Assembly (NCBI GenBank): GCA_014879675.1
Contig: JACSRQ010000134.1
Span: 1-56,662, forward strand
Origin: Ignavibacteria bacterium
GTDB taxonomy: Bacteria; Bacteroidota; Ignavibacteria; Tepidaquicellales; OLB5
DNA: 56,662 bases
Direction: 5' to 3'
Translations under genes and position numbers: made by a program
The notes under the pieces: model-generated
What the model saw: only the letters and a program-made list of their open reading frames with translations
The model's database searches: none
Told to the model about the DNA's origin: nothing
Shown here: positions 11,571 to 26,520 of the stretch, piece by piece
How positions within the stretch are numbered: the stretch's first letter is position 1
Layout of the letters: the number at the start of each line of letters is the position of its first letter

Positions 11571-13031
11571 TTACTTTACAAGGACAAGCTTTTTCGAATC
11601 AGTAAAATCCATTGCTGCCATCTTACAGAAATAAACGCCGCTTGGCAAATCTACAGCGTCAAATTTCACTTTGTATATACCTGCTTTCATATCCTCATTA
11701 ACCAAAATGGCAATCTCCTTTCCAGTAACATCAAATATAGATAACTTAACGTTTGACGCTTCCGGAACACTGAAGCTTATTGCTGTAACCGGGTTAAAAG
11801 GATTTGGATAGTTCTGTTCAAGCCTAAAGCTCTGCGGAATTTCGCTGCTTACCGGCTGAATACCTATAGTTGAGTAAACTGAATGCAAATACTGCAGCAC
11901 ATCCATCGAAAGCGCATCGATGTAACCGGAGTTATTAAAATTTGCTGAAGTGCCGGAATTTGAGAGTATCACAACTCCTCCTTTGATCCCTGTTACTGAA
12001 TCAGTATAAAAAGTGATAAAGCTGTTGTAACCCGGAGTGCCGCCATCTTTGTATTGTATCCACGGATTGTTGAGCTGGAATTTCAGGCGGTTCGAAGCCC
12101 ATGCCATCCCCTGCCATTGCTGCGTTGGTGCGCCGGGATTTATCCGTTTAATATGCCGGTGCATAGTATCCAATAGCGGGTTAAGGGTTGAGTTTGTCAG
12201 CTTCATCTGGTACTCCAGGTAAGTCGTCATATCTTTGATAGTCGATCGTATCGCCCCCGCGCCGTTAAATGCGGGCCATGTTGATTTATTACTATCGGCA
12301 AGCACCCAAACGTTTGAATTATTCCTCACATATCCTTTTGCCGAGCGCAGTATCATAGAAAGCGTGCGCGTTATTTTTGTATCAGTCATGCCAAGTGAAT
12401 CGGTAATGATCTGCTGAAACATCTGCTCTATAGAGTCACGCCCCGCATGCATAGTAAGCCCGGTGGCAAGTGTCGCAAATCCGATATTTGAATACCGCCA
12501 TATTGAATCCGGCTTCGTAAGCAGATGACATGTATCGAGGTAGCGGAACATATGGTTTATCGTATAAGGATAGTTAATTGCCGGCGGTTCATCTATCAAA
12601 CCAGAAAAATGTGTGACAAGCTCTATCAGATTTATTTTTGTTGTATCACTGCCATTCAGCCAATAAGGCACTCTTAGTGAATCAGGCAGATAACTCTTTA
12701 TCAGGTCATACCTGTTCGCCATATTGTAGCGCAGCATATAAGCCATTACCATTGCGGTAAAAGTTTTGGTTACCGAGCCTATCTGGTAAACAGTAGCACT
12801 ATCAGGTCTTGCATGTGTGGACCTGTCTTTTTCGCCGTGGTAGAAATATCTTTTGATAAATTCATTTGTAACGGGATTTTTGTAAATTACCCCGATCGAA
12901 ACACCCACAGTGGTATCGCTGTAATGCACTCTGAAAAGTGAATCAATTGCGCGTCCGAAAGGATCGTTTTGTGAAAAAGAGACTGAAACAATGATCATAA
13001 ATAAAAACGCTGCTCTAAGTAGAAATTTCAT
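11571..13031 (-). CDS. Secreted serine hydrolase (class C beta-lactamase family) with T9SS sorting domain
   Basis: The ATG ending at 13031 is chosen because a signal peptide (MKFLLRAAFLFMIIVSVSFS) starts there; an upstream in-frame codon would add an unneeded 14 residues. The beta-lactamase/penicillin-binding fold occupies about 20-390. The catalytic SxxK is S86-V-T-K89, the second motif is YSN in WRYSNIGFA, and the third is GGTPGYN where lactamases have KTG/HTG. Such enzymes are usually D-aminopeptidases or esterases rather than antibiotic-degrading enzymes, so I make no resistance call. The C-terminal 85 residues are a T9SS type A sorting domain (QNYPNPFNP, ending KKLVLVK). Secreted to the cell surface. 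Confidence 0.9.
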   Translation of the reverse strand: MKFLLRAAFLFMIIVSVSFSQNDPFGRAIDSLFRVHYSDTTVGVSIGVIYKNPVTNEFIKRYFYHGEKDRSTHARPDSATVYQIGSVTKTFTAMVMAYMLRYNMANRYDLIKSYLPDSLRVPYWLNGSDTTKINLIELVTHFSGLIDEPPAINYPYTINHMFRYLDTCHLLTKPDSIWRYSNIGFATLATGLTMHAGRDSIEQMFQQIITDSLGMTDTKITRTLSMILRSAKGYVRNNSNVWVLADSNKSTWPAFNGAGAIRSTIKDMTTYLEYQMKLTNSTLNPLLDTMHRHIKRINPGAPTQQWQGMAWASNRLKFQLNNPWIQYKDGGTPGYNSFITFYTDSVTGIKGGVVILSNSGTSANFNNSGYIDALSMDVLQYLHSVYSTIGIQPVSSEIPQSFRLEQNYPNPFNPVTAISFSVPEASNVKLSIFDVTGKEIAILVNEDMKAGIYKVKFDAVDLPSGVYFCKMAAMDFTDSKKLVLVK

Positions 13032-13071
13032 ATTTTCCCGGGATAAATGAACGGCAATATCTTTATATAAC

Positions 13072-13108
13072 AAAAAAAAAGCAATCCCTTTGAAGAGATT
13101 GCCTTTTT
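13072..13108 (-). terminator. Terminator on the minus strand after the M14 carboxypeptidase gene
   Basis: Stem GCAATC / GATTGC with an 10-base loop, extended by A/T runs; on the minus strand it is followed by an 8-base or longer T run. It separates the carboxypeptidase gene from the serine hydrolase gene. The composite repeat at 13136 lies between the carboxypeptidase stop and this terminator. Confidence 0.75.
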
Positions 13109-13306: not shown

Positions 13307-15742
13307 CTACTTTACAAGAACCATCTTTTTGATCGATGTGAACTCTGCAGCTTCAATTCGGTAGAAATAAACTCCGCTTGGTAGATTTCCGGCATCATAC
13401 TCCATTTCATAACTTCCCGCACTCATATTTTGATAAACCGGGACCGAAATTTCTCTGCCTGCAACATCGTAAACTGAGATCTTAACGAATGTTGAACGCG
13501 CGAGATCAAATTTGATCTTGGTTGCGGGGTTAAACGGATTAGGATAGTTTTGAGATAACCCAAACCTGAGAGGCACTTCATTTCCGCTCTGTGTTATGCC
13601 AACAGGACCATCAGTGTAATTAACTACCCTGAAGTTATCAAAATAGAAGCCATCGCCGGGCAGCCCGTTATCTGATACATAGTTGAAACGAAGCCTTATC
13701 CTCTGGCCGATGTATGGATTCAGGTTAACTCTTTCATAGATCCATGACTGCACTCCGTGATATGAAGGCTGCCCTCCTACGGTTGATGTGAACCTGCCTG
13801 CAAGATTTGTCCAACTGCTGCCAAAATTTGTGCTGACCTGTATCCTGGTATAATCAAAGGTTGTTTCAGTAGCCCATTTTGCCATGAATTCCAGTCTTGG
13901 GTTAACTGCGCCGGTGAGGTTAATGGTATCATTTAATGTGAAAAAATTATTTGTGTTATCCTTTGAATTGCCATACCTTGAATCGGCAAACGAATGTCCT
14001 TCTGACCAATAGCCCACGAATGATGTATCCCATTGTGTTTGATTTCCGCTTTTGGTCCACCTGCCGGTACCGTTTTCAGAGTTATCACTAACCATAACAT
14101 TACCCCTGCCAACTATTACAGAAATAGTATCAAGCGAAGTCTCAACATTATCCTGTTTAGTACTTACAATAAGCTTGATTTCATCCATATATGCAGCAGC
14201 ATTGTTCAGCTTAAATGTAAATGGAGCTGTATTATACTTTATCTGCCTCGCGCTGATGCTGCCGTAACTAATATTTGAGTTAATAGCTGTAATATTTGGA
14301 TAAGAAGTAGTTATACTTACTGTTACACTGTTTGATGGCAGCGAAAGACCTTTGTTCCTGATACCTACCTGCAGCTTAAGAGTATCGTTTCTTTCCACAT
14401 AACCGCTGCCCTGAATTGTATAGTTCTGAAATCTTGCATAGGCGCCGCCAACCCATGAGAGATACTTGTAGCTCGGCAGCATTTTATTCGCCTCCGGTAT
14501 AATTTCATTTTGCAGCGGCCAGAAATCACTTCCGCCAACTTCCGGGGTCCAGCAATAAGTACCGTTAACCCTGTGCATCCAGTCGCGGGTAGTGCCGCTT
14601 GAATAGTATTGCAGCATTTCAATTACTGTGCCGTAAGTAAAATTGTTTTCGCTGGCAAAGTCACCCGAGAAATCGGAATAAATATCATACGAAATCGCCG
14701 AATCATTGTAACTCAAAGTATTCAGATATCTGCCTGCAACTGAATGCACTGAAAATCCAATTTTAGGCAGAATAGAAGCGCACATATTTTTGATAGCCTG
14801 CGTTTCCGGTTCACTTCCTGCCGATGGGCCGCGGTATGTATCGCTGCTCGGTGTACCGCTTGAACCGCTGTTATACCCCCAGCCGTAATCATAGTTGCGG
14901 TTAAGATCCACTCCGTAGCTTCCGCTATTATTCCTGCGGTTTTTCCTCCATGATCCGCCTCCGTTGGGATTAGTGGTCTGATTATAAACATAGCCATCCG
15001 GATTCACCACAGGCACAAAATATATCTCCCGGTTATCCACAAGATATTTTGCTTCAGGATTGGTATTATAGTTATCAAGCAGCCAGTACATGAAGTACAT
15101 TGTGCCTGCCATTGCCTGCGGTTCACGCGCATGATGAAGAGCGTCGAAATAAATTACAGATTCAGATCCCGATTCATTTACATCGGGGTTATCGGATATT
15201 TTCACTGACCAGATAGTTCTTCCTTCGGTTGATGTACCCCTGTTCTGTTTCGCAGTGATCAGGTTGGGATATTGCAGCCTCATTGAATCAAGTTTTTGCA
15301 CAACTTCAGCGTAAGTATAGTAACCGCCCATGCTTCCATAACTGAAACTCATAACATTATCGTTCTGCATGATCTCCGCGCTTTTCATCATTGCATTGGC
15401 ATCCGGTGCCGGCCTGTTATCATAGTAAGTGGTCATATCCGGCACAAGCACCGTATGCGGTATTCCGGTTTGCTTTAGCTTAGCCACCTCATGCTGACTC
15501 ATCACCAAAACAATACCATCCTTCACGCTTCCCTGGTAATGATCGAGGTCGATCTCATTATCCGCTAGAAGTGCAATATCTTCGGCCGAATTAACCATGA
15601 TTCTGACCTTGCTGTAAGTATCAGCCTGGGTGCTGTTTTGCGGGAAAAAAGTAAACTTTGCTGAAAAATAAGCAGAAAAAGCTAATAATATTAATATAAC
15701 TGCAGTTCTTGTTTTCATAATGCTGAATAGAATTTTTTTCAC
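13307..15742 (-). CDS. Secreted M14 zinc carboxypeptidase with T9SS sorting domain
   Basis: An 811-residue protein: signal peptide, M14 peptidase domain (about 115-425), a beta-rich region, a MAM/jelly-roll-like domain (about 550-720) and a T9SS domain (QNYPNPFNP, ending KKMVLVK). Zinc ligands are H204 and E207 in HHAREP with a later His in GFSVHSVAG. NPDGY, RKNRR and VDLNRNYDYGW are substrate-binding landmarks, and the general-base Glu is in CWTPEVGGSDFWP. It removes C-terminal residues from peptides, probably at the cell surface. The start is a GTG at 15742 or the ATG eight codons later; the second gives a tidier signal peptide but lacks a nearby ribosome binding site. Confidence 0.93.
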   Translation of the reverse strand: MKKILFSIMKTRTAVILILLAFSAYFSAKFTFFPQNSTQADTYSKVRIMVNSAEDIALLADNEIDLDHYQGSVKDGIVLVMSQHEVAKLKQTGIPHTVLVPDMTTYYDNRPAPDANAMMKSAEIMQNDNVMSFSYGSMGGYYTYAEVVQKLDSMRLQYPNLITAKQNRGTSTEGRTIWSVKISDNPDVNESGSESVIYFDALHHAREPQAMAGTMYFMYWLLDNYNTNPEAKYLVDNREIYFVPVVNPDGYVYNQTTNPNGGGSWRKNRRNNSGSYGVDLNRNYDYGWGYNSGSSGTPSSDTYRGPSAGSEPETQAIKNMCASILPKIGFSVHSVAGRYLNTLSYNDSAISYDIYSDFSGDFASENNFTYGTVIEMLQYYSSGTTRDWMHRVNGTYCWTPEVGGSDFWPLQNEIIPEANKMLPSYKYLSWVGGAYARFQNYTIQGSGYVERNDTLKLQVGIRNKGLSLPSNSVTVSITTSYPNITAINSNISYGSISARQIKYNTAPFTFKLNNAAAYMDEIKLIVSTKQDNVETSLDTISVIVGRGNVMVSDNSENGTGRWTKSGNQTQWDTSFVGYWSEGHSFADSRYGNSKDNTNNFFTLNDTINLTGAVNPRLEFMAKWATETTFDYTRIQVSTNFGSSWTNLAGRFTSTVGGQPSYHGVQSWIYERVNLNPYIGQRIRLRFNYVSDNGLPGDGFYFDNFRVVNYTDGPVGITQSGNEVPLRFGLSQNYPNPFNPATKIKFDLARSTFVKISVYDVAGREISVPVYQNMSAGSYEMEYDAGNLPSGVYFYRIEAAEFTSIKKMVLVK

Positions 15743-16337: not shown

Positions 16338-16742
16338 TTGAGTAGCAGCGCTCAAAAAATAATTCTTTTTGACGGAGTCTGCAGTTTCTGCAACTCCTCA
16401 GTAAATTTCATTATGGACCGGGATAAGTATGACTTATTCCGGTTCGCTGCTTTACAATCTGAAGCCGGCATCAGCCTTCAGAAGAAATTAGGCATAGATC
16501 ATAACGACCTGCAATCAATAATTCTAATAGAAGATAACAGGTACTATAAAAAAACTACGGCTGCTCTCAGGATAGCCCGGGATATTGGCTTTCCATACTT
16601 GATGCTGTATCCTCTGATCATTATTCCCCCGTTCATCCGAAACATAGCTTATAATATCATTGCACGATACCGATACAAATGGTTCGGCAAAAAAGAAGCC
16701 TGCCGCATCCCCACACCCGCTGAGAGAGCGAAATTCCTGTAG
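16338..16742 (+). CDS. DCC-family (DUF393) thiol-disulfide oxidoreductase-like protein
   Basis: A 134-residue protein whose N-terminus has the family signature LFDGVCSFCNSSVNFI, with the CxxC pair at C15 and C18, followed by RFAALQSEAG and the Y(R/K)YKWFGKK end. The start is TTG; no ATG upstream of the DGxCxxC motif exists. Members are thioredoxin-like proteins of unproven redox function. It follows the acetyltransferase gene by 14 bases, so co-transcription is likely. No signal peptide. Confidence 0.88.
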   Translation: MSSSAQKIILFDGVCSFCNSSVNFIMDRDKYDLFRFAALQSEAGISLQKKLGIDHNDLQSIILIEDNRYYKKTTAALRIARDIGFPYLMLYPLIIIPPFIRNIAYNIIARYRYKWFGKKEACRIPTPAERAKFL

Positions 16743-16806
16743 GGATTAGCTGCCTGTTTGAAATAATCGCGATATTTGCAGTACAAAACGCCCGTTCATC
16801 CTTTAT

Positions 16807-16832
16807 TTTGCATGCAATTATTAATATATTTG
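16807..16832 (+). promoter_or_regulatory. Promoter, TTTG-N14-TATATTTG, for the 16875 gene
   Basis: TTTG at 16807-16810, exactly 14 bases, TATATTTG at 16825-16832. The -7 box ends 42 bases before the TTG start of the GH2-like gene. Confidence 0.7.
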
Positions 16833-16874
16833 TAAGATTTTTAACAATTTCCCAAAATTTTCCATCAGTCTAAG

Positions 16875-19442
16875 TTGAATCTGAAAACGGCACGATATTT
16901 AAGGCTATTTTTACTGATCTTTATTGCAATTATTGTTGATATTAATGCACAGCCAAAGCTCCTTACACGCAACTCACCGCAGATACCGGAAGCATACCAG
17001 AAAAATCTCAATAATGAATTCAGGAAGCTGATCAATTTAAATGGTCAGTGGAACATTACATCCCAACAAGCTTCAGCATCAACAGTCGAAGTTCCGTTTT
17101 GTTATGATTTCAAAGGTAAAGTAACCGTTACCAGGTCATTTAACACCGGGATAGAGTCACCCGGAGATTACAACTACATTATCTGCTGCGACGGTATAAA
17201 CTACCAGGCCGAAATAATAATAAACGGGAATTTCATCGTAAAGCACGAAGGCGGTTTCACTCCATTCAATTCACCTGTTGCCGAAGGTATCATTAAAGAA
17301 TCAGGAAATGTGATTGAAGTGAAGATCGATAATACTCTTGATGCTTCAAGAACGATTCCTTTGAAATATACAGCAAATTACCCTAAGAATTACGGCGGAA
17401 TTTACAGGGATATATACATACTCGCAGTTCCCAAGCTTTATGTGAAATCATCAAATGTAATTTCAGAAATAGATATCAACCTTAACGCCGATATTAAAAA
17501 TACAGTAACGCTCAGTGCAACTGATATCGAAAGGTATGGATCCGATAAGAAGTTTTCGGTTAAAACAGAACTTGTAGATACATCAGGAGCTGTAAAAGGA
17601 AGTGGTGATGCCGTTGCGTTCTCCATTTCATCAAACTCAACTATACAGGTAATAAACAAGTTTTCGCTTAACGGGCCCGTTTACTGGTCACCGGAATACC
17701 CTAATCTTTACAGGCTGAAAGTTACAGTTATGCAGGGAGACCAGGTTGTAGATACATATGAAACGGATTACGGACTTTACGAGCTGGTAAGGAAATCGGG
17801 CAACCTGATGTTCAACAGCAGCCAGTTCAGCTTTAAAGGCATAAATTATGTTGAAGAATTCGGCGCTTCCGGTATATGCGCAACATATGAAGATATTGAA
17901 CGTGATGTAAAGCTTATAAAAGGACTGGGATGTAACACTATCAAAGTTTATGGCAGGCCCGCTAGCGCATACCTGATAGATCTATGTAACAAAAACGGGC
18001 TCTTACTGATGGAAGAATTGCCGGTTTATACCGTACCCGGCGGAATACTTGAGACAGAAAATTTTCTTCAGCTTGCAGAGAACCAGCTGAATGAAATGAT
18101 AGCGGCACATAAGAACAATCCCTGCATATTTGCCTACGGACTTGGAAACGATTTTGATGTTACGGTACCTGCCGGGCAAACATACGTAAAGCGTATGGTA
18201 AGCGCAGCCCGCAGCCTTGATAACAGGCTGCTATATTACTCCACACGGAATTATTATAATGATAAGTGCCGCGACCTGGTTGATATTACAGGGATAAATT
18301 ATTACGATGGCGATCTGGGCCAGCTGAAAAATGCAATCGCCGATATGAAGCTTAAGAAGGAAAAGGTATTCATATCAAATTACGGCAAGATCATTAATCC
18401 ATCTAATACTTCAGGCTACAGCGACCCAAACTCGCTTGAAGCACAATCAAAGTTCATTGTAGATTTTAACAAGCTCATAAAAGGCTCGGTATTGATGGGC
18501 GGGTTTTTACAATCGTTCACAGACTGGAATTCAGATATTCCAAATTTAAGATACCCTGATCTTACCAATCAATACATGAGGACAACCGGCCTGTTTACTT
18601 TATACAGGGAGCAGCGTCCGCCGGCAATTATACTCAGAAAAATATTTCTAGATGAAGATATCCCGAACCTGAATATTGGTACATTTTCAAAAGAAGCTCC
18701 CCTGCTTTTTGTTTTCACAGGGTTGATAACTTTTATTCTATTCATTTACCTTGCGAACAGCGTACGCCGTTTCCGCGAAAATGTGTGGCGGGCACTCTTC
18801 AGGCCTTTCATTTTTTATACTGATGTAAGAGAGCAGAACCTCATACCAACATTTCATAATATCCTGCTTGGAATAATTATTTCCATCGGCAGCGGCTTGT
18901 TCTTCGCGAACCTTCTTTACTTCTGGAAAGATTCACAGCTAATGGATATCATGCTTTCATTGCTCATATCAAACGATGCTGCGAAGATCTTTGTTGACCA
19001 GAATGTTGTGAATCCGCTTAAGCTAACTGCACTGCTGGCAGGTTTATCATTTGTGAAGATCTTCCTTGTTGCATTCGTGATCTGGCTCTTTAGTCTCACT
19101 ATCAAATACAGAGTTGGCTTTAACAATATATATACTATAACTGTTTGGGGCTTCATGCCGGTTATAGTTTTACTGGCTATTGGCACATTCTACATCAGGA
19201 TACTTCAGGCTAATACTGATTTCGTTATCATAGGGCTTGGCATTGCCGCATTTATCTATATTCTTTCATTTTACCGGATACTTAAAGGTACCTACCTGCT
19301 GTTTGATACATTTTTCCTGAAGGCGTATGCATATGGAATTATCACTATTGTTGTAATTGGAGGCGGTACACTATTGTATCTTAATACCACAAGATATTTC
19401 CTTGATTATTTCAAGCTCATATTGACATTTCTGAAGCTTTAG
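16875..19442 (+). CDS. GH2-like protein with substituted catalytic residues, fused to a C-terminal polytopic membrane domain
   Basis: An 855-residue protein with a TTG start and a signal peptide (residues 1-25, ending DINAQ). Residues about 50-600 follow the beta-glucuronidase/beta-galactosidase order: jelly-roll (NGQWNIT..., YGGIYRDIYIL), immunoglobulin-like domain, then a TIM barrel (FKGINYVEEFG, CNTIKVYGRP). In this family the acid/base is the Glu of a NE motif; here the aligned place reads GLGND, giving N425-D426. The nucleophile Glu of EYG is replaced: ISNYG puts N502 there. The scaffold is intact but retaining hydrolysis looks impossible, so it is probably a carbohydrate-binding pseudoenzyme. 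Residues about 618-855 form five or six transmembrane helices, possibly Yip1-like. Whether the sugar-binding part faces the periplasm is inferred from the signal peptide. Confidence 0.82.
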   Translation: MNLKTARYLRLFLLIFIAIIVDINAQPKLLTRNSPQIPEAYQKNLNNEFRKLINLNGQWNITSQQASASTVEVPFCYDFKGKVTVTRSFNTGIESPGDYNYIICCDGINYQAEIIINGNFIVKHEGGFTPFNSPVAEGIIKESGNVIEVKIDNTLDASRTIPLKYTANYPKNYGGIYRDIYILAVPKLYVKSSNVISEIDINLNADIKNTVTLSATDIERYGSDKKFSVKTELVDTSGAVKGSGDAVAFSISSNSTIQVINKFSLNGPVYWSPEYPNLYRLKVTVMQGDQVVDTYETDYGLYELVRKSGNLMFNSSQFSFKGINYVEEFGASGICATYEDIERDVKLIKGLGCNTIKVYGRPASAYLIDLCNKNGLLLMEELPVYTVPGGILETENFLQLAENQLNEMIAAHKNNPCIFAYGLGNDFDVTVPAGQTYVKRMVSAARSLDNRLLYYSTRNYYNDKCRDLVDITGINYYDGDLGQLKNAIADMKLKKEKVFISNYGKIINPSNTSGYSDPNSLEAQSKFIVDFNKLIKGSVLMGGFLQSFTDWNSDIPNLRYPDLTNQYMRTTGLFTLYREQRPPAIILRKIFLDEDIPNLNIGTFSKEAPLLFVFTGLITFILFIYLANSVRRFRENVWRALFRPFIFYTDVREQNLIPTFHNILLGIIISIGSGLFFANLLYFWKDSQLMDIMLSLLISNDAAKIFVDQNVVNPLKLTALLAGLSFVKIFLVAFVIWLFSLTIKYRVGFNNIYTITVWGFMPVIVLLAIGTFYIRILQANTDFVIIGLGIAAFIYILSFYRILKGTYLLFDTFFLKAYAYGIITIVVIGGGTLLYLNTTRYFLDYFKLILTFLKL

Positions 19443-19492
19443 CTAATATTGGCGACAGTTTAGTTTTAGCGAAATCTTAGCCAATTTTTAAT

Positions 19493-19500
19493 TATATTTG
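19493..19500 (+). promoter_or_regulatory. Possible -7 box (TATATTTG) upstream of smc
   Basis: TATATTTG 78 bases before the TTG start of smc; no TTTG at 14 bases upstream. Confidence 0.3.
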
Positions 19501-19578
19501 TAGTGGTTAATGGCAGCGAATCCAGGGTATTTCTTACTTCGCTCAACATATTGAATTTATTAAGTTAATACTTAACAT

Positions 19579-22500
19579 TTGTATCTAAGTAAGCTCGAAA
19601 TCTTTGGTTTCAAGTCCTTTGCCGATAAGATCGCGGTGGATTTTGATGCCGGAATGACATCTATTGTTGGCCCTAACGGCTGCGGCAAAACAAATATTGT
19701 TGACGCGGTTAGATGGGCTATTGGCGAACAAAAGGCCAGCGTGCTGAGAAGCTCGACAATGGAAAATGTTATTTTCAACGGTACGAAGAACAGGAAGCCG
19801 CTTGGATTTGCAGAAGTATCCCTTACGATCCAGAATACAAAAGGAATATTACCTTCAGAATATACTGAAATAAAGATAACCCGCCGCTGTTTCCGCGATG
19901 GAGCAAGCAACTATATGCTCAATGGCGTAAACTGCAGGCTGAAAGATATTACTGCCCTGTTCATGGATACCGGTATGGGCTCCGATGCTTATTCGGTGAT
20001 AGAGCTAAAGATGGTGAACGAGATACTTTCGCACCGCACACAGGATAGAAGAAAGCTTTTTGAAGAAGCCGCAGGGATAACCCGCTACAAAGAAAGACGC
20101 CGCGAAGCGCTCTACAAGCTTGAAGTTGCAAGAGAGAATATCAATGAAGCTAATATTGAGATCCGCAACCGGCAGCGTACTGTAAATGCATACGAAAGAA
20201 TTGCCCAGAAGCAGCAGGAAGCAAAGGAAGTAAGCGGCAAACTGAAGGATATTGAAATTGAATACCACCAGCGCTCACTTAGCAGGCTCATAGATGAAAC
20301 TAAAAATATTGAAGACAAGCTTAAGTCAAAAGAATCCGAGCGTGAAAACCTGCAGGCAAGCCTTAACAGCAACGAAAACCTGATAGAAAAATATAAATCA
20401 GAGCTTTCAGTAACCGAAGGGCGTTTGAATGAATCGCGTGACAGGCTCAATGCAATAAACCTGAAGATAAATGAGCTGCAAACAGCAATATCAATTGCCG
20501 AACAGCGGATGAAATACCTGCAGGAAAACATTGAAAGATTTTCACGTGAAAAAATTGAAATTGAAGCAGCCATTGAAAAGCTCAGCGCATCTAAGATTAC
20601 CATAGAAGATAAGATCATAGTGCTGAAAAGTACTGCTGACCTTATGGAAGACTCGCGTTCATCCAAAAAATCAGCGCTTGATGAAACTGAAACCCGCGTA
20701 AAAAGCAGCAAGGAAGAGCTTAAAGATCTCACCATAAAACATGCCGCATCATCCAAGGCGCTTGTTGAAAAACAAAATGAGTACGAGATCATTAAAAACA
20801 GGCTTGAAGACCAGATAGCGCGCTGCAGCAGGCTGGCAGATGAGAACATTGTCAATATTAACAAGGTAGCTGCGTTTGATGAAGAGTTAAGACAGGCCGA
20901 AACGGAAATGCAGGCTAACAGGGATAGTCTTTCTAACTTGCAGGCCGAATATGAAGAAAAGAGAAAAGTCAAAGAAAACTTTGCGTCAGAAATAAATAAG
21001 CTTGAAAAGGATATTATCTACCGCAGGCATGAGAGCGAGAAGCTTAAAAATAAAATAGAGTTCCAGACAAACCTGCTTGAAAACTACGATGACTATTCCG
21101 AAGGCATAAAATACCTTGTTAAGGATAAAAATGAAAAAGGCGCTAATGTAGTTATTGATAACCTTGAGGTTGAAGATAAGTTCAAGATCGCGATAGAAAC
21201 CGCTCTTGGTGAAATATCGAATTACCTGATAGTAAATGACCTTGATGCAGCGGAGAATTTCATAAAGATCCTTACAAAAGAACAAAAAGGCAAAGTCACG
21301 TTTATCATCAGAGACCAGCTATATAACACAACTATGAATATCTTCCAGGAAGAGTTCCCGGAAATATTGAATCATGAGGGTGTTTACGGCTGGGCAGATA
21401 TGTTTATTAAGTGTCCAGATGAATACCTGATGCTTTATAAATACCTTCTCGATGAATTCATTATCGTAGAGAACCTTGATATAGCACGCAAGCTTTCAAA
21501 AGATAATTTCATTAAGTTCATTACACTTGATGGCGATATAATCACAAACAGCTTTTTAAGGGCAGGCAGCAAAACCAATATCGAATCGCTTAAGATAGGC
21601 CGCGAAAAGCTGATAGCCGGGCTGCAGTCACAGATCACAGAAATTGAAGCTTCAATTGAACAGGATTCAGTAAAACTAAGAGAACTTAAAACCGGATTTG
21701 CCGCAATAGATATAGAAGGCAGGCAGAACCGTGTGCAGGAAGCAAGGGCTAAGCTGCTGAATTCTGAAAACAGGATACAGCAGGCTAACTACCTTAAATC
21801 TGAAACAAACAAGCTTATTGTACATTATAAAGAAGAAAATGATACACTGAGCGTTTCAAACAAAGAGCTTTCCGAAAAGATGGATAGCCTTATCAATGAA
21901 ATTGAAGCTGCTGAAAATGTGAAATACCAGCGTGAAAAAGAGCTTGAACATTTTACTACTGAGCTTGAAAATCTGGCTGATGAGCTTACAACCAAGCGCG
22001 AAGAGTTTAACTCGTTCAATATAGAAATTACCAAACTGAAAGCTGAGCTCTCGAACCTTGATAACGAGCATATCCGCATCGAAGAGAGCATAAAATCACG
22101 GAAGAACAATATTGAGGCAAGAACGCTTGAGTGTAATGAGTACCAGAATGAGATAATGAAGCTTGGCGCTGAAATTGAATCATACAACCAGGATGGCACA
22201 AGAAACGGGCATAAGCCAAAACTCGCAGTGCTAGAAACAGAAAAAGCAGGTGTTGAGTCAGATTTCAGCCTGATTAGAAGTGAGTATGAAGTAAAAAGAG
22301 GTATCGTCGATAAAGTTGAGCATGAGCAAAAAGAGCTCAGGAATTCACGGGATAGCATTATTGATTTCATCCACAAAAATGAAATGCAGCTTACCAAAGA
22401 CAGGCTTGAGATAAAAGAACACAGGGATAAAATAAAGGAAGAATACGAGATTGATATTGAATACACAGTATTTGAAGATGCTGAAGTATTTGACCTTGTG

Positions 22501-23169
22501 AGAGCGAAGGCAGAAGTTGACCGCCTGCGCAATAAGCTTCGCCAGCTTGGCGGCTCCGGACAGCTTGAGTTGGGGATCTATGAACAGGAAAAAGCTGACC
22601 TCGAAAAGCTTGTTGAAGAAAGAAATGACCTTGCCAAGGCGGAATCAGATCTAATTGGCCTGATTGACGAAATAAATAAAACAGCGCAGAAGAAGTTTAC
22701 AGATACCTTTGAGATGATTAGGCAGAATTTCATGTCTATCTTCAAAGAGCTGTTCCTTGAAGGTGATGAATCGGATCTCAGGCTCGTTATTGATCCTGAA
22801 AATCCCGACCCGCTTGACGCAAAGATCGATATTATCGCAAAACCGAGAGGTAAAAGACCGCAGCTTATTGACCTTCTTTCTGGCGGTGAAAAAACACTAA
22901 CTGCTATTGCCCTGCTATTTGCAATTTACCAGGTGAAACCGTCACCATTCTGTATATTGGATGAGGTTGATGCACCGCTTGATGATGCGAATATTGACAG
23001 GTTCATCAAGATCATCAGGAAGTTTTCGGAGGATACACAGTTCATAATTGTAACCCATAACAAACGTACAATGGAAGCAGCAGACTCCATGTATGGCGTA
23101 ACAATGGCAGAACAGGGAATTTCGACCATTGTAAATGTAAAGTTTAACGATCAAAAAATAGCATCATAG
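19579..23169 (+). CDS. smc: Chromosome segregation protein SMC
   Basis: The 1196-residue ATPase that organises and helps segregate chromosomal DNA, usually with ScpA and ScpB (not in this window). N-terminal head: Walker A GPNGCGKT at 31-38 and the conserved VDAVRWAIGEQKAS. Long coiled coils (about 170-500 and 670-1030) surround a hinge (about 510-660) with NYLIVNDLDAAE and FIRAGS-like sequence. C-terminal head: signature LSGGEKTLTAIALLFAIY near 1100 and Walker B CILDEVDAPLDDANIDRF near 1125. The start is TTG, forced by the conserved N-terminus LSKLEIFGFKSFA. Large frames on the opposite strand here are shadows of the coiled coil. Confidence 0.97.
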   Translation: MYLSKLEIFGFKSFADKIAVDFDAGMTSIVGPNGCGKTNIVDAVRWAIGEQKASVLRSSTMENVIFNGTKNRKPLGFAEVSLTIQNTKGILPSEYTEIKITRRCFRDGASNYMLNGVNCRLKDITALFMDTGMGSDAYSVIELKMVNEILSHRTQDRRKLFEEAAGITRYKERRREALYKLEVARENINEANIEIRNRQRTVNAYERIAQKQQEAKEVSGKLKDIEIEYHQRSLSRLIDETKNIEDKLKSKESERENLQASLNSNENLIEKYKSELSVTEGRLNESRDRLNAINLKINELQTAISIAEQRMKYLQENIERFSREKIEIEAAIEKLSASKITIEDKIIVLKSTADLMEDSRSSKKSALDETETRVKSSKEELKDLTIKHAASSKALVEKQNEYEIIKNRLEDQIARCSRLADENIVNINKVAAFDEELRQAETEMQANRDSLSNLQAEYEEKRKVKENFASEINKLEKDIIYRRHESEKLKNKIEFQTNLLENYDDYSEGIKYLVKDKNEKGANVVIDNLEVEDKFKIAIETALGEISNYLIVNDLDAAENFIKILTKEQKGKVTFIIRDQLYNTTMNIFQEEFPEILNHEGVYGWADMFIKCPDEYLMLYKYLLDEFIIVENLDIARKLSKDNFIKFITLDGDIITNSFLRAGSKTNIESLKIGREKLIAGLQSQITEIEASIEQDSVKLRELKTGFAAIDIEGRQNRVQEARAKLLNSENRIQQANYLKSETNKLIVHYKEENDTLSVSNKELSEKMDSLINEIEAAENVKYQREKELEHFTTELENLADELTTKREEFNSFNIEITKLKAELSNLDNEHIRIEESIKSRKNNIEARTLECNEYQNEIMKLGAEIESYNQDGTRNGHKPKLAVLETEKAGVESDFSLIRSEYEVKRGIVDKVEHEQKELRNSRDSIIDFIHKNEMQLTKDRLEIKEHRDKIKEEYEIDIEYTVFEDAEVFDLVRAKAEVDRLRNKLRQLGGSGQLELGIYEQEKADLEKLVEERNDLAKAESDLIGLIDEINKTAQKKFTDTFEMIRQNFMSIFKELFLEGDESDLRLVIDPENPDPLDAKIDIIAKPRGKRPQLIDLLSGGEKTLTAIALLFAIYQVKPSPFCILDEVDAPLDDANIDRFIKIIRKFSEDTQFIIVTHNKRTMEAADSMYGVTMAEQGISTIVNVKFNDQKIAS

Positions 23170-25192: not shown

Positions 25193-25915
25193 TTGCGGCC
25201 TAAACTAAAAATATTCAGTGATTTTGACGGTACGATCTCGTTTTATGATACCTGGATCGAAATGGGCGAGTTCTTTATCAATGATAAGGAAAAATGGGCG
25301 GCAGTAATTAAAGAGTTTGAGGAGCAAAAAATCGGAGCAAGGGAGTGTTTCCTCAGGGAATGCGCCTTAGTTGAGAATTTTGATATTACCGAGTTCAACC
25401 GGATAATTGATGCGCAGCGGCTGGACCCCATGTTCGGGAAATTTGTTGAATTTTGTAATAAAAACCGGCTTCCGCTTACTATATTAAGTGAAGGTATGGA
25501 TTATTACATCGGCAGGATTCTGGGTAATCATGGAATAGACCTGCCATACTTCTCGAATAAGTTGATTATATCAGCAGATGGCAAATCGATTGGTTTGGAA
25601 TTCCCCTATTCGGATTCGGATTGCGCAAAATGCGGCACCAGCAAAAGGAATATTTTGATGAACATGTGCGGAGATGATGACATTTCAGTATTTATAGGCG
25701 ATGGATTTTCAGATGCGTGCGTTGTAAATTATGCTGATGTAGTTTTTGCAAAAAAATCACTGGCTTCATACTGCTGGAAAAACAACATTACCTATTACGA
25801 TTACCAGACTTTTGGTGATGTTATCCGCAAGCTGGAAAAGCTTCTGGATTCCAAATCACTCAAACACAGGCAGGCTGCGAAATTAAAACGCCGCGAAGTT
25901 TTTTTAAGAGGATAA
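25193..25915 (+). CDS. HAD-superfamily IB phosphatase, MtnX/SerB-like
   Basis: A 240-residue cytoplasmic phosphatase. Motif I is FSDFDGTIS with the nucleophile D10 and acid D12; motif II is the serine in TILSEGMDYY; motif III/IV is FIGDGFSDACVV. An all-helical cap lies between about 16 and 85. The overall pattern, including the YYI after motif II and the CAKCGTSKR cysteines before motif III, matches MtnX-like HAD-IB phosphatases. Substrate not certain: phosphoserine or a methionine-salvage intermediate are family precedents. TTG start is needed because the next Met is past motif I. First gene of the seven-gene envelope run. Confidence 0.87.
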   Translation: MRPKLKIFSDFDGTISFYDTWIEMGEFFINDKEKWAAVIKEFEEQKIGARECFLRECALVENFDITEFNRIIDAQRLDPMFGKFVEFCNKNRLPLTILSEGMDYYIGRILGNHGIDLPYFSNKLIISADGKSIGLEFPYSDSDCAKCGTSKRNILMNMCGDDDISVFIGDGFSDACVVNYADVVFAKKSLASYCWKNNITYYDYQTFGDVIRKLEKLLDSKSLKHRQAAKLKRREVFLRG

Positions 25916-25935
25916 AATTAACGTAAATATATCAA

Positions 25936-26520
25936 ATGACTTTAGGTAAATTTCTATTTGAAAACAGGTCTTATACTCCCCTTCCATTCTTAATACCGAT
26001 GCTTCTTTTTGCGCGGCCAACCATCACCACGATGCTTATAGGATTCGTGTTTGTTCTCATTGGCGAGTCATTCAGGTTCTGGGGTGTTTCATACGCAGGA
26101 AGCGAAACCCGAACCACAGGCAAGGTTGGCGCGTCAAACCTTGTTACGCAGGGACCTTTTGCATTCGTAAGGAATCCGCTTTACCTCGGCAACATACTTA
26201 TGTATTTCGGTATCAGCGTAATGTCTAATTCGCTTGTACCCTATTTGCAGATATTGAGCATAGCCTACTTCACATTCCAGTATTACTTTATCATAAAGGA
26301 AGAAGAGGGATTTTTGAAGAAGGAATTCGGCGAAAAATATGAGCACTATTTCAATAATGTGAACAGGTTCCTCCCGAAATTTTCGGCGTATGACGAATCC
26401 AAAAGCTCAAAGCTCAGCATGGATGTCAAAGCTGCGTATGTTTCAGAAAAGAGAACTTTCCAGGCAACATTTGTAAGCATTATAATGATAGTTCTGGTTT
26501 ACCTGCTGATCAATCAGTAA
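25936..26520 (+). CDS. Isoprenylcysteine carboxyl methyltransferase/phospholipid methyltransferase-like membrane protein
   Basis: A 194-residue protein with about four to five membrane helices. The family signature is clear: GPFAFVRNPLYLGNILMYFG, then a later EEEGFLKKEFGEKYEHYFNNVNRFLPKF, which forms the SAM-binding C-terminal core in ICMT/PEMT proteins. Substrates in bacteria are lipids or unidentified small molecules. The last 30 residues add another hydrophobic helix. It starts 20 bases after the phosphatase gene and its stop shares one base with the lpxB start, so they form one transcript. A role in lipid modification fits the neighbours but is inference. Confidence 0.86.
   Translation: MTLGKFLFENRSYTPLPFLIPMLLFARPTITTMLIGFVFVLIGESFRFWGVSYAGSETRTTGKVGASNLVTQGPFAFVRNPLYLGNILMYFGISVMSNSLVPYLQILSIAYFTFQYYFIIKEEEGFLKKEFGEKYEHYFNNVNRFLPKFSAYDESKSSKLSMDVKAAYVSEKRTFQATFVSIIMIVLVYLLINQ

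Follow-up and report, generated by a model that had tools for sequence, protein, structure and literature searches.

The Klotho proteins of animals are dead GH1 domains of FGF co-receptors that pass the membrane once, and EnvC and NlpD, the degenerate LytM factors, employ a dead hydrolase fold as regulators of division. Ordinary GH2 glycosidases (here 6xxw, 6ncy and Escherichia coli UidA) are built on a three-domain scaffold whose fold, together with the residues D550, G572 and E381, they have in common with the protein described below. For the Yip1/YIPF proteins (PF04893), a five-helix core with a cytoplasmic N side and an outward C-terminus is described in a YIPF review (PMC6682643), which proposes transporter, channel or receptor roles and notes that none has been reported for prokaryotic members.

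Here, we describe a gene that joins these modules, found in a 56,662-nucleotide stretch of DNA from an Ignavibacteria bacterium (the window). Compared with GH2 glycosidases, its family lacks the catalytic Glu pair, carries a polytopic membrane domain and does not keep the pocket residues; compared with Yip1/YIPF proteins, it has an extra leading helix and a large, putatively periplasmic pseudo-GH2 part, and the window copy itself misses the Pfam model. The likeness to Klotho (membrane proteins that likewise bear a glycosidase fold without catalysis) is one of analogy only, as the latter is GH1 and not GH2, and the same applies to EnvC/NlpD, whose fold and sequence are unrelated to the window protein. 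The literature searched contained no report of a GH2-Yip1 protein or of its association with smc or ftsZ. Both the GH2 fold and the Yip1 domain are known, and what is new is a family of dead-enzyme membrane scaffolds for which we found no description.

The gene starts with TTG and its frame is open over 855 codons (16875-19442, + strand). Its parts, and the partner downstream, are:

16875..19442, + strand: whole gene (signal peptide, pseudo-GH2 and Yip1-like membrane domain), 855 aa plus stop
16875..16949, + strand: signal peptide-like N-terminal helix, residues 1-25 (hydrophobic peak 5-23; model helix 3-19)
16980..17432, + strand: GH2 N-terminal sugar-binding-like sandwich, residues 36-186 (Pfam PF02837 Glyco_hydro_2_N, E 3.5e-7)
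17499..17777, + strand: GH2 immunoglobulin-like domain, residues 209-301 (Pfam PF00703 Glyco_hydro_2, E 2.3e-13)
17793..18641, + strand: GH2 TIM barrel, residues 307-589 (Pfam PF02836 Glyco_hydro_2_C, E 5e-16; whole-model Foldseek)
18150..18152, + strand: D426 codon, position of the acid/base Glu (alignments)
18378..18380, + strand: N502 codon, position of the nucleophile Glu (alignments)
18672..19439, + strand: membrane part, residues 600-855 (Yip1-like by its relatives, not by the window copy alone)
18765..18848, + strand: predicted cytoplasmic loop 1, residues 631-658 (highest conservation among 13 segments compared)
19422..19450, + strand: promoter-like site TTGACA-N16/17-TAATAT/AATATT at the gene's 3' end, ahead of smc (10/12 matches)
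19579..23169, + strand: smc, the conserved downstream partner (same strand in 71/81 loci)

All three GH2 domains of the window protein (jelly-roll, Ig-like and TIM-barrel) pass the curated Pfam cut-offs. The AlphaFold2 model, computed with 53 aligned sequences as input, reached a mean pLDDT of 89 and a pTM of 0.85, and its top Foldseek match was the beta-glucuronidase 6xxw (E 7.5e-39, TM-score on target 0.81). An earlier note on this DNA had proposed a complete three-domain GH2 scaffold, which Pfam, AlphaFold2 and Foldseek bear out, within an exported, membrane-anchored pseudoenzyme, a claim supported by the signal-like helix (with a putative cleavage site), the six predicted membrane helices and the absence of the Glu pair. 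That the gene encodes a non-catalytic GH2-membrane fusion is near certain.

Sequence alignment with 6ncy set D426 beneath the Glu of 'GNE' and N502 beneath the Glu of 'TEFG', and aligning the protein to E. coli UidA and further GH2 enzymes gave the same placements. In a 124-row alignment all 11 ordinary GH2 controls have Glu at both sites, where the window has D and N. The two replacements claimed from the sequence (of the acid/base Glu by D426 and of the nucleophile Glu by N502) are therefore borne out by the 6ncy, UidA and 124-row alignments, and of the checks that had been proposed, alignment to GH2 enzymes upholds them and structure prediction bears out the fold.

The fused rows of this alignment were drawn from 125 loci with a family match, which gave 121 open reading frames of at least 600 aa and, after the removal of repeated copies, 113 long forms (the shorter pieces L054, L055, L057 and L058 were left out, and the truncated rows L012, L017, L024, L046 and L056 were retained). 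None of the 113 carries both Glu residues. Homologues with a catalytic Glu, which had been named as evidence against a pseudoenzyme, gave a mixed picture, with Glu found singly at 502 (26/113) and at 426 (7/113). Eleven residue types occur at 426 and 16 at 502 (one gap each), the two sites rank at the 58th and 23rd conservation percentiles among barrel positions over the 113 members, and the positions aligned to UidA W549, R562, N566 and K568 are variable across the family. Glu is found at neither site in the 19 aligned short forms (see below). D293, N354, G514, S520, Q524, D550 and G572, in contrast, are almost fixed in the fused family. On the question whether D426 and N502 are conserved in homologues, both sites vary across the 113 members, and selection for binding at the former catalytic site is unsupported as stated; that the scaffold is conserved and not decaying holds, its residues being fixed across the fused family. 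The gene is likewise maintained rather than decaying in 12 further genomes from the same genus and family, with 58-77% identity and no stops in the matches.

Judged from these alignments, the entire fused family is non-catalytic as far as the GH2 mechanism goes, and the drift of two sites while scaffold residues stay fixed argues for selection on the scaffold, not on one pocket. Since the protein cannot work by the standard GH2 mechanism, domain matches alone mislead, and such genes should not be named beta-galactosidase or beta-glucuronidase. FastTree split the 113 fused proteins from the 11 GH2 controls by one branch (support 100); on the tree made without the columns of sites 426 and 502, Glu at 502 needs eight changes and Glu at 426 seven, counts that belong to a phylogeny with weak support at 36 of 121 inner branches, with some long rows and with many rows of differing composition.

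Eight barrel positions (327, 344, 381, 470, 517, 522, 530 and 550) are acidic in 70% or more of the 113 members. Within the fused family E381 is acidic in 110/113 and D550 in 106/113 rows, and the acidic fractions at D344 and D470 are 0.99 and 0.96; the GH2 controls have E381 and D550 in 11/11, D470 in 9/11 and an acidic residue at D344 in 6/11. A Glu pair hidden elsewhere in the barrel, which the earlier note had regarded as fatal to its claim, was rejected as a candidate: near-invariant acidic positions are found in the GH2 controls too, and no substitute pair was identified. E381, D550, D470 and D344 look like scaffold residues common with ordinary GH2 enzymes.

The membrane part comprises six hydrophobic helices (at about 608-629, 659-683, 714-740, 761-779, 783-810 and 814-840), on which the model and the hydrophobic peaks agree. 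Of the helices formerly placed at about 618-855, the six membrane helices stand, and the start does not, as the first begins near 608. From the signal peptide and the K/R counts, the GH2 part is predicted to be periplasmic, residues 631-658 cytoplasmic and the C-terminus outside; the predicted five-helix core would then have the orientation given for YIPF proteins in the review (PMC6682643). None of the other 12 segments compared is as conserved as the loop at 631-658 (mean 2.70 bits, versus 1.75 for the TIM barrel).

Taken alone, the membrane part of the window protein lies below every Pfam cut-off and gives no Yip1 match. Among its relatives, Pfam Yip1 is matched at E<=1e-3 by 26 of 64 aligned rows (best 7.8e-8) and at E<=0.1 by 25 of the 53 full-length sequences aligned, and a stand-alone 294-aa frame (L054, genome G052) scores 33.3 bits against a cut-off of 28.6. 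The earlier note, which had recorded the membrane domain and the place before smc, missed this Yip1-like identity as well as the depth of the smc link. Weak, below-cut-off matches to ABC transporters and to DUF4271 were set aside, Yip1 being preferred, and matches to cytochrome oxidase subunit 2 in the PDB (E 0.012-0.7) were taken as chance, as they cover short hydrophobic stretches. Solved structures searched by sequence with the membrane profile yielded no credible related chain.

A first search returned a match in 58 of 59 genomes (including its own), a few of them partial or ordinary GH2. The search of named genomes used a single protein, the alignment having no conserved stretch, and its named matches are close relatives only, i.e. 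Ignavibacteria and Chlorobi/Chlorobiota assemblies (e.g., Chlorobi bacterium OLB5). A profile of the barrel and membrane part was run on 247 genomes of the phylum (61 of the class and 186 others), with 71 unmatched genomes taken as outside the class because rows were ordered by kinship. Among the matches listed, the profile runs colinearly through both modules in 57 of the 61 class genomes (in G118 the copy is cut by the contig end, and in G203 the match was reported with a stop), and a fused colinear relative is present in at least 38 of the 186 others; the GH2-plus-membrane architecture, whose search in relatives had been suggested, is thus widely found. The relatives outside the class comprise 11 long forms (families f20, f23 and f38) and 27 short forms (frames of 503-796 codons, 11 families, 27 genomes). 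The short forms align colinearly with the long form and, by their length and alignment starts, appear to lack both sandwich domains; in G232 and G125 the profile match spans only the second part of the barrel and the membrane part. Pfam, run on four short forms, gave one weak GH2-barrel match (E 0.033), one at chance level and none in two. The fused protein is ancient. One further candidate relative (G066, 1.7e-18) was discarded, as its match covers only the barrel of an 866-aa frame, an ordinary GH2 protein.

The class has four exceptions. G052 retains the membrane part only and is the one case seen of a module missing from an otherwise normal locus (GH2 part gone, membrane module kept); its family mate G257 has smc, and no fused copy was found in it. 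G207 has neither the fused gene nor smc, as is the case in G011 (same genus), and both absences are most simply read as assembly gaps. G095 has a broken frame: in this one-contig genome the fused gene (L215) occurs as separate open pieces in different frames, which is either a broken gene or an assembly error. The Yip1-only relative of G052, without GH2 part (L174, 481-1363), lies immediately upstream of smc.

Gene order was assessed over 81 distinct loci with wider flanks. In 71 of them smc is the next gene downstream and has the same orientation (among the remaining ten, L046 lacked the room for it), so the position before smc, already given for the window, is borne out. The gap between the stop codon of the fused gene and the start of smc has a median of 9.5 bp and is at most 30 bp in 52 of 70 measurable cases (136 bp in the window), and the commonest upstream neighbour recurs in only 19/81 loci. 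A motif check of all 113 loci found smc in 90 and not in 21, with too little room in two. Of the 21, L013 does show smc once its wider stretch (L077) is included, and L056 represents a split copy; the remaining 19 belong to families f7, f14 and f17, plus L041 (f5) and L130 (f15). At four f14 loci (L051, L131, L132 and L137) the fused gene directly precedes, instead of smc, what we take to be hrcA- and dnaJ-like genes (presumably with a grpE-like frame between them in two of the four), a context that speaks for a general housekeeping operon position. Beyond smc (about 25193-26520 and further in the window), presumed HAD-phosphatase-like genes (47/81 loci) and a methyltransferase-like membrane gene (42/81) recur, along with genes we take to be lpxB-like (23/81) and lpxK-like (9/81), in a set where many of the stretches are too short to reach them.

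For the short forms, gene order was covered in 19 of the 27 genomes. Two f28 short forms are also directly upstream of smc (confirmed by NCBIfam), and smc lies elsewhere in all 25 short-form genomes outside f28. In seven of the 19 loci (five f39, one f43 and one f22) the short-form gene comes after a same-strand series of murC, an ftsQ-like frame, ftsA and ftsZ; ftsZ and the short-form gene are 3 to 162 bp apart or overlap in six of them and are separated by 932 bp in one. NCBIfam confirmed FtsZ in four of the seven loci and FtsA and MurC in one, the remainder being assigned by clustering, and its match to FtsQ was weak and below the cut-off. Neither smc nor ftsZ is adjacent in 10 of the 19. 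The ftsZ cases, lying within three families, may represent one ancestral event. Genes that are presumably sugar-transferase-like (convergent), Ttg2D/MlaC-like and TolC-like recur beside short forms at nine of 20 loci (L198, L200, L201, L203, L204, L206, L210, L211 and L213); the one copy of the sugar-transferase-like gene tested had no NCBIfam match.

We reason, tentatively, that the protein is a non-catalytic periplasmic scaffold mounted on a Yip1-like module, with a part in division, segregation or the upkeep of the envelope. The GH2 scaffold, facing the periplasm, would be the surface on which a protein partner (or, in some lineages, a glycan) docks, while five Yip1-like helices and one leading helix would lie in the inner membrane and a strongly conserved, positively charged loop would face the cytoplasm. 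The gene probably shares a transcript with smc (in some lineages, with the ftsZ cluster), and gene order makes a role in cell division, chromosome segregation or the accompanying envelope synthesis the most likely one, similar to that of catalytically dead hydrolase folds acting as regulators elsewhere. It is the occurrence in two separate cell-cycle contexts (smc and ftsZ) that leads us to such a docking scaffold; against a cell-cycle role, gene order can mean shared expression and not shared function. On that latter footing the protein could be a housekeeping envelope component (e.g., for lipid or glycolipid handling) whose position beside smc or ftsZ only secures steady expression, as the presumed hrcA/dnaJ-like context of the four f14 loci and the HAD-phosphatase-, methyltransferase-, lpxB- and lpxK-like genes presumed beyond smc would suggest, but two different cell-cycle contexts in different families speak against it and we consider it unlikely.

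A periplasmic receptor or sensor for sugars or glycans, in which the dead site binds the sugar and the Yip1-like module passes on a signal or solute, draws its support from the window's own order, and a residual pocket may matter there: in this clade of 40 rows N425 and G360 are kept in 40/40 and N475 in 39/40, and position 426 is D, N or E (31, 7 and 2 rows; 79th percentile). Transporter, channel or receptor roles proposed for YIPF proteins in the review (PMC6682643) would fit it as well. Position 502, however, drifts even within the order (N14, S11, G5, Y5, H2 and others; 23rd percentile), the pocket is unconserved family-wide, including the positions aligned to the UidA residues, and the short forms appear to dispense with both sandwich domains and with Glu at either site (19/19). 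The sugar-receptor reading of the earlier note thus keeps weak support within the order and loses it across the family, and appears rather improbable. That the protein is an active enzyme working by another mechanism, through carboxylates other than the GH2 pair, is very unlikely: the conserved E381, D550, D344 and D470 that might serve it recur in the GH2 controls at the frequencies given above. A decaying glycosidase gene, to which the broken frame of G095, the membrane-only copy of G052 and the loss in G257 beside a retained smc could be ascribed, is scarcely credible against fused colinear copies in 57/61 class genomes (among the matches listed) and fixed scaffold residues. The docking scaffold, in turn, admits a bolder version, which we hold to be possible though doubtful, namely an undescribed ancient component of division or segregation, present in several classes, that links the envelope to SMC or FtsZ through its Yip1-like module; the dead glycosidase fold would in that case read either a partner in the periplasm or the septal wall, and if this were true it would give a bacterial Yip1 protein its first tractable role. 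A near-universal class gene before smc or after ftsZ provides a concrete, testable way in.

The gene had been credited with its own promoter, yet a scan of 16600-19700 for sigma-70 sites detected nothing promoter-like on the + strand ahead of the start codon. The scan gave 12 promoter-like sites in total, near chance (shuffled mean 9.1, sd 2.9).

TTG is the start codon of both the fused gene (16875) and smc (19579) in the window. It is also the first start candidate in the 11 same-genus copies of the fused gene listed, and ATG appears among the listed start candidates of only one of these, well inside the protein. On the - strand, the frames at 11571-13073 and 13307-15742, which we take to be beta-lactamase-like and carboxypeptidase-like, have ends that presumably resemble type IX secretion sorting domains. 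The C-terminal stretch of both reads NYPNPFNP ... SGVYF ... KKLVLVK or KKMVLVK.
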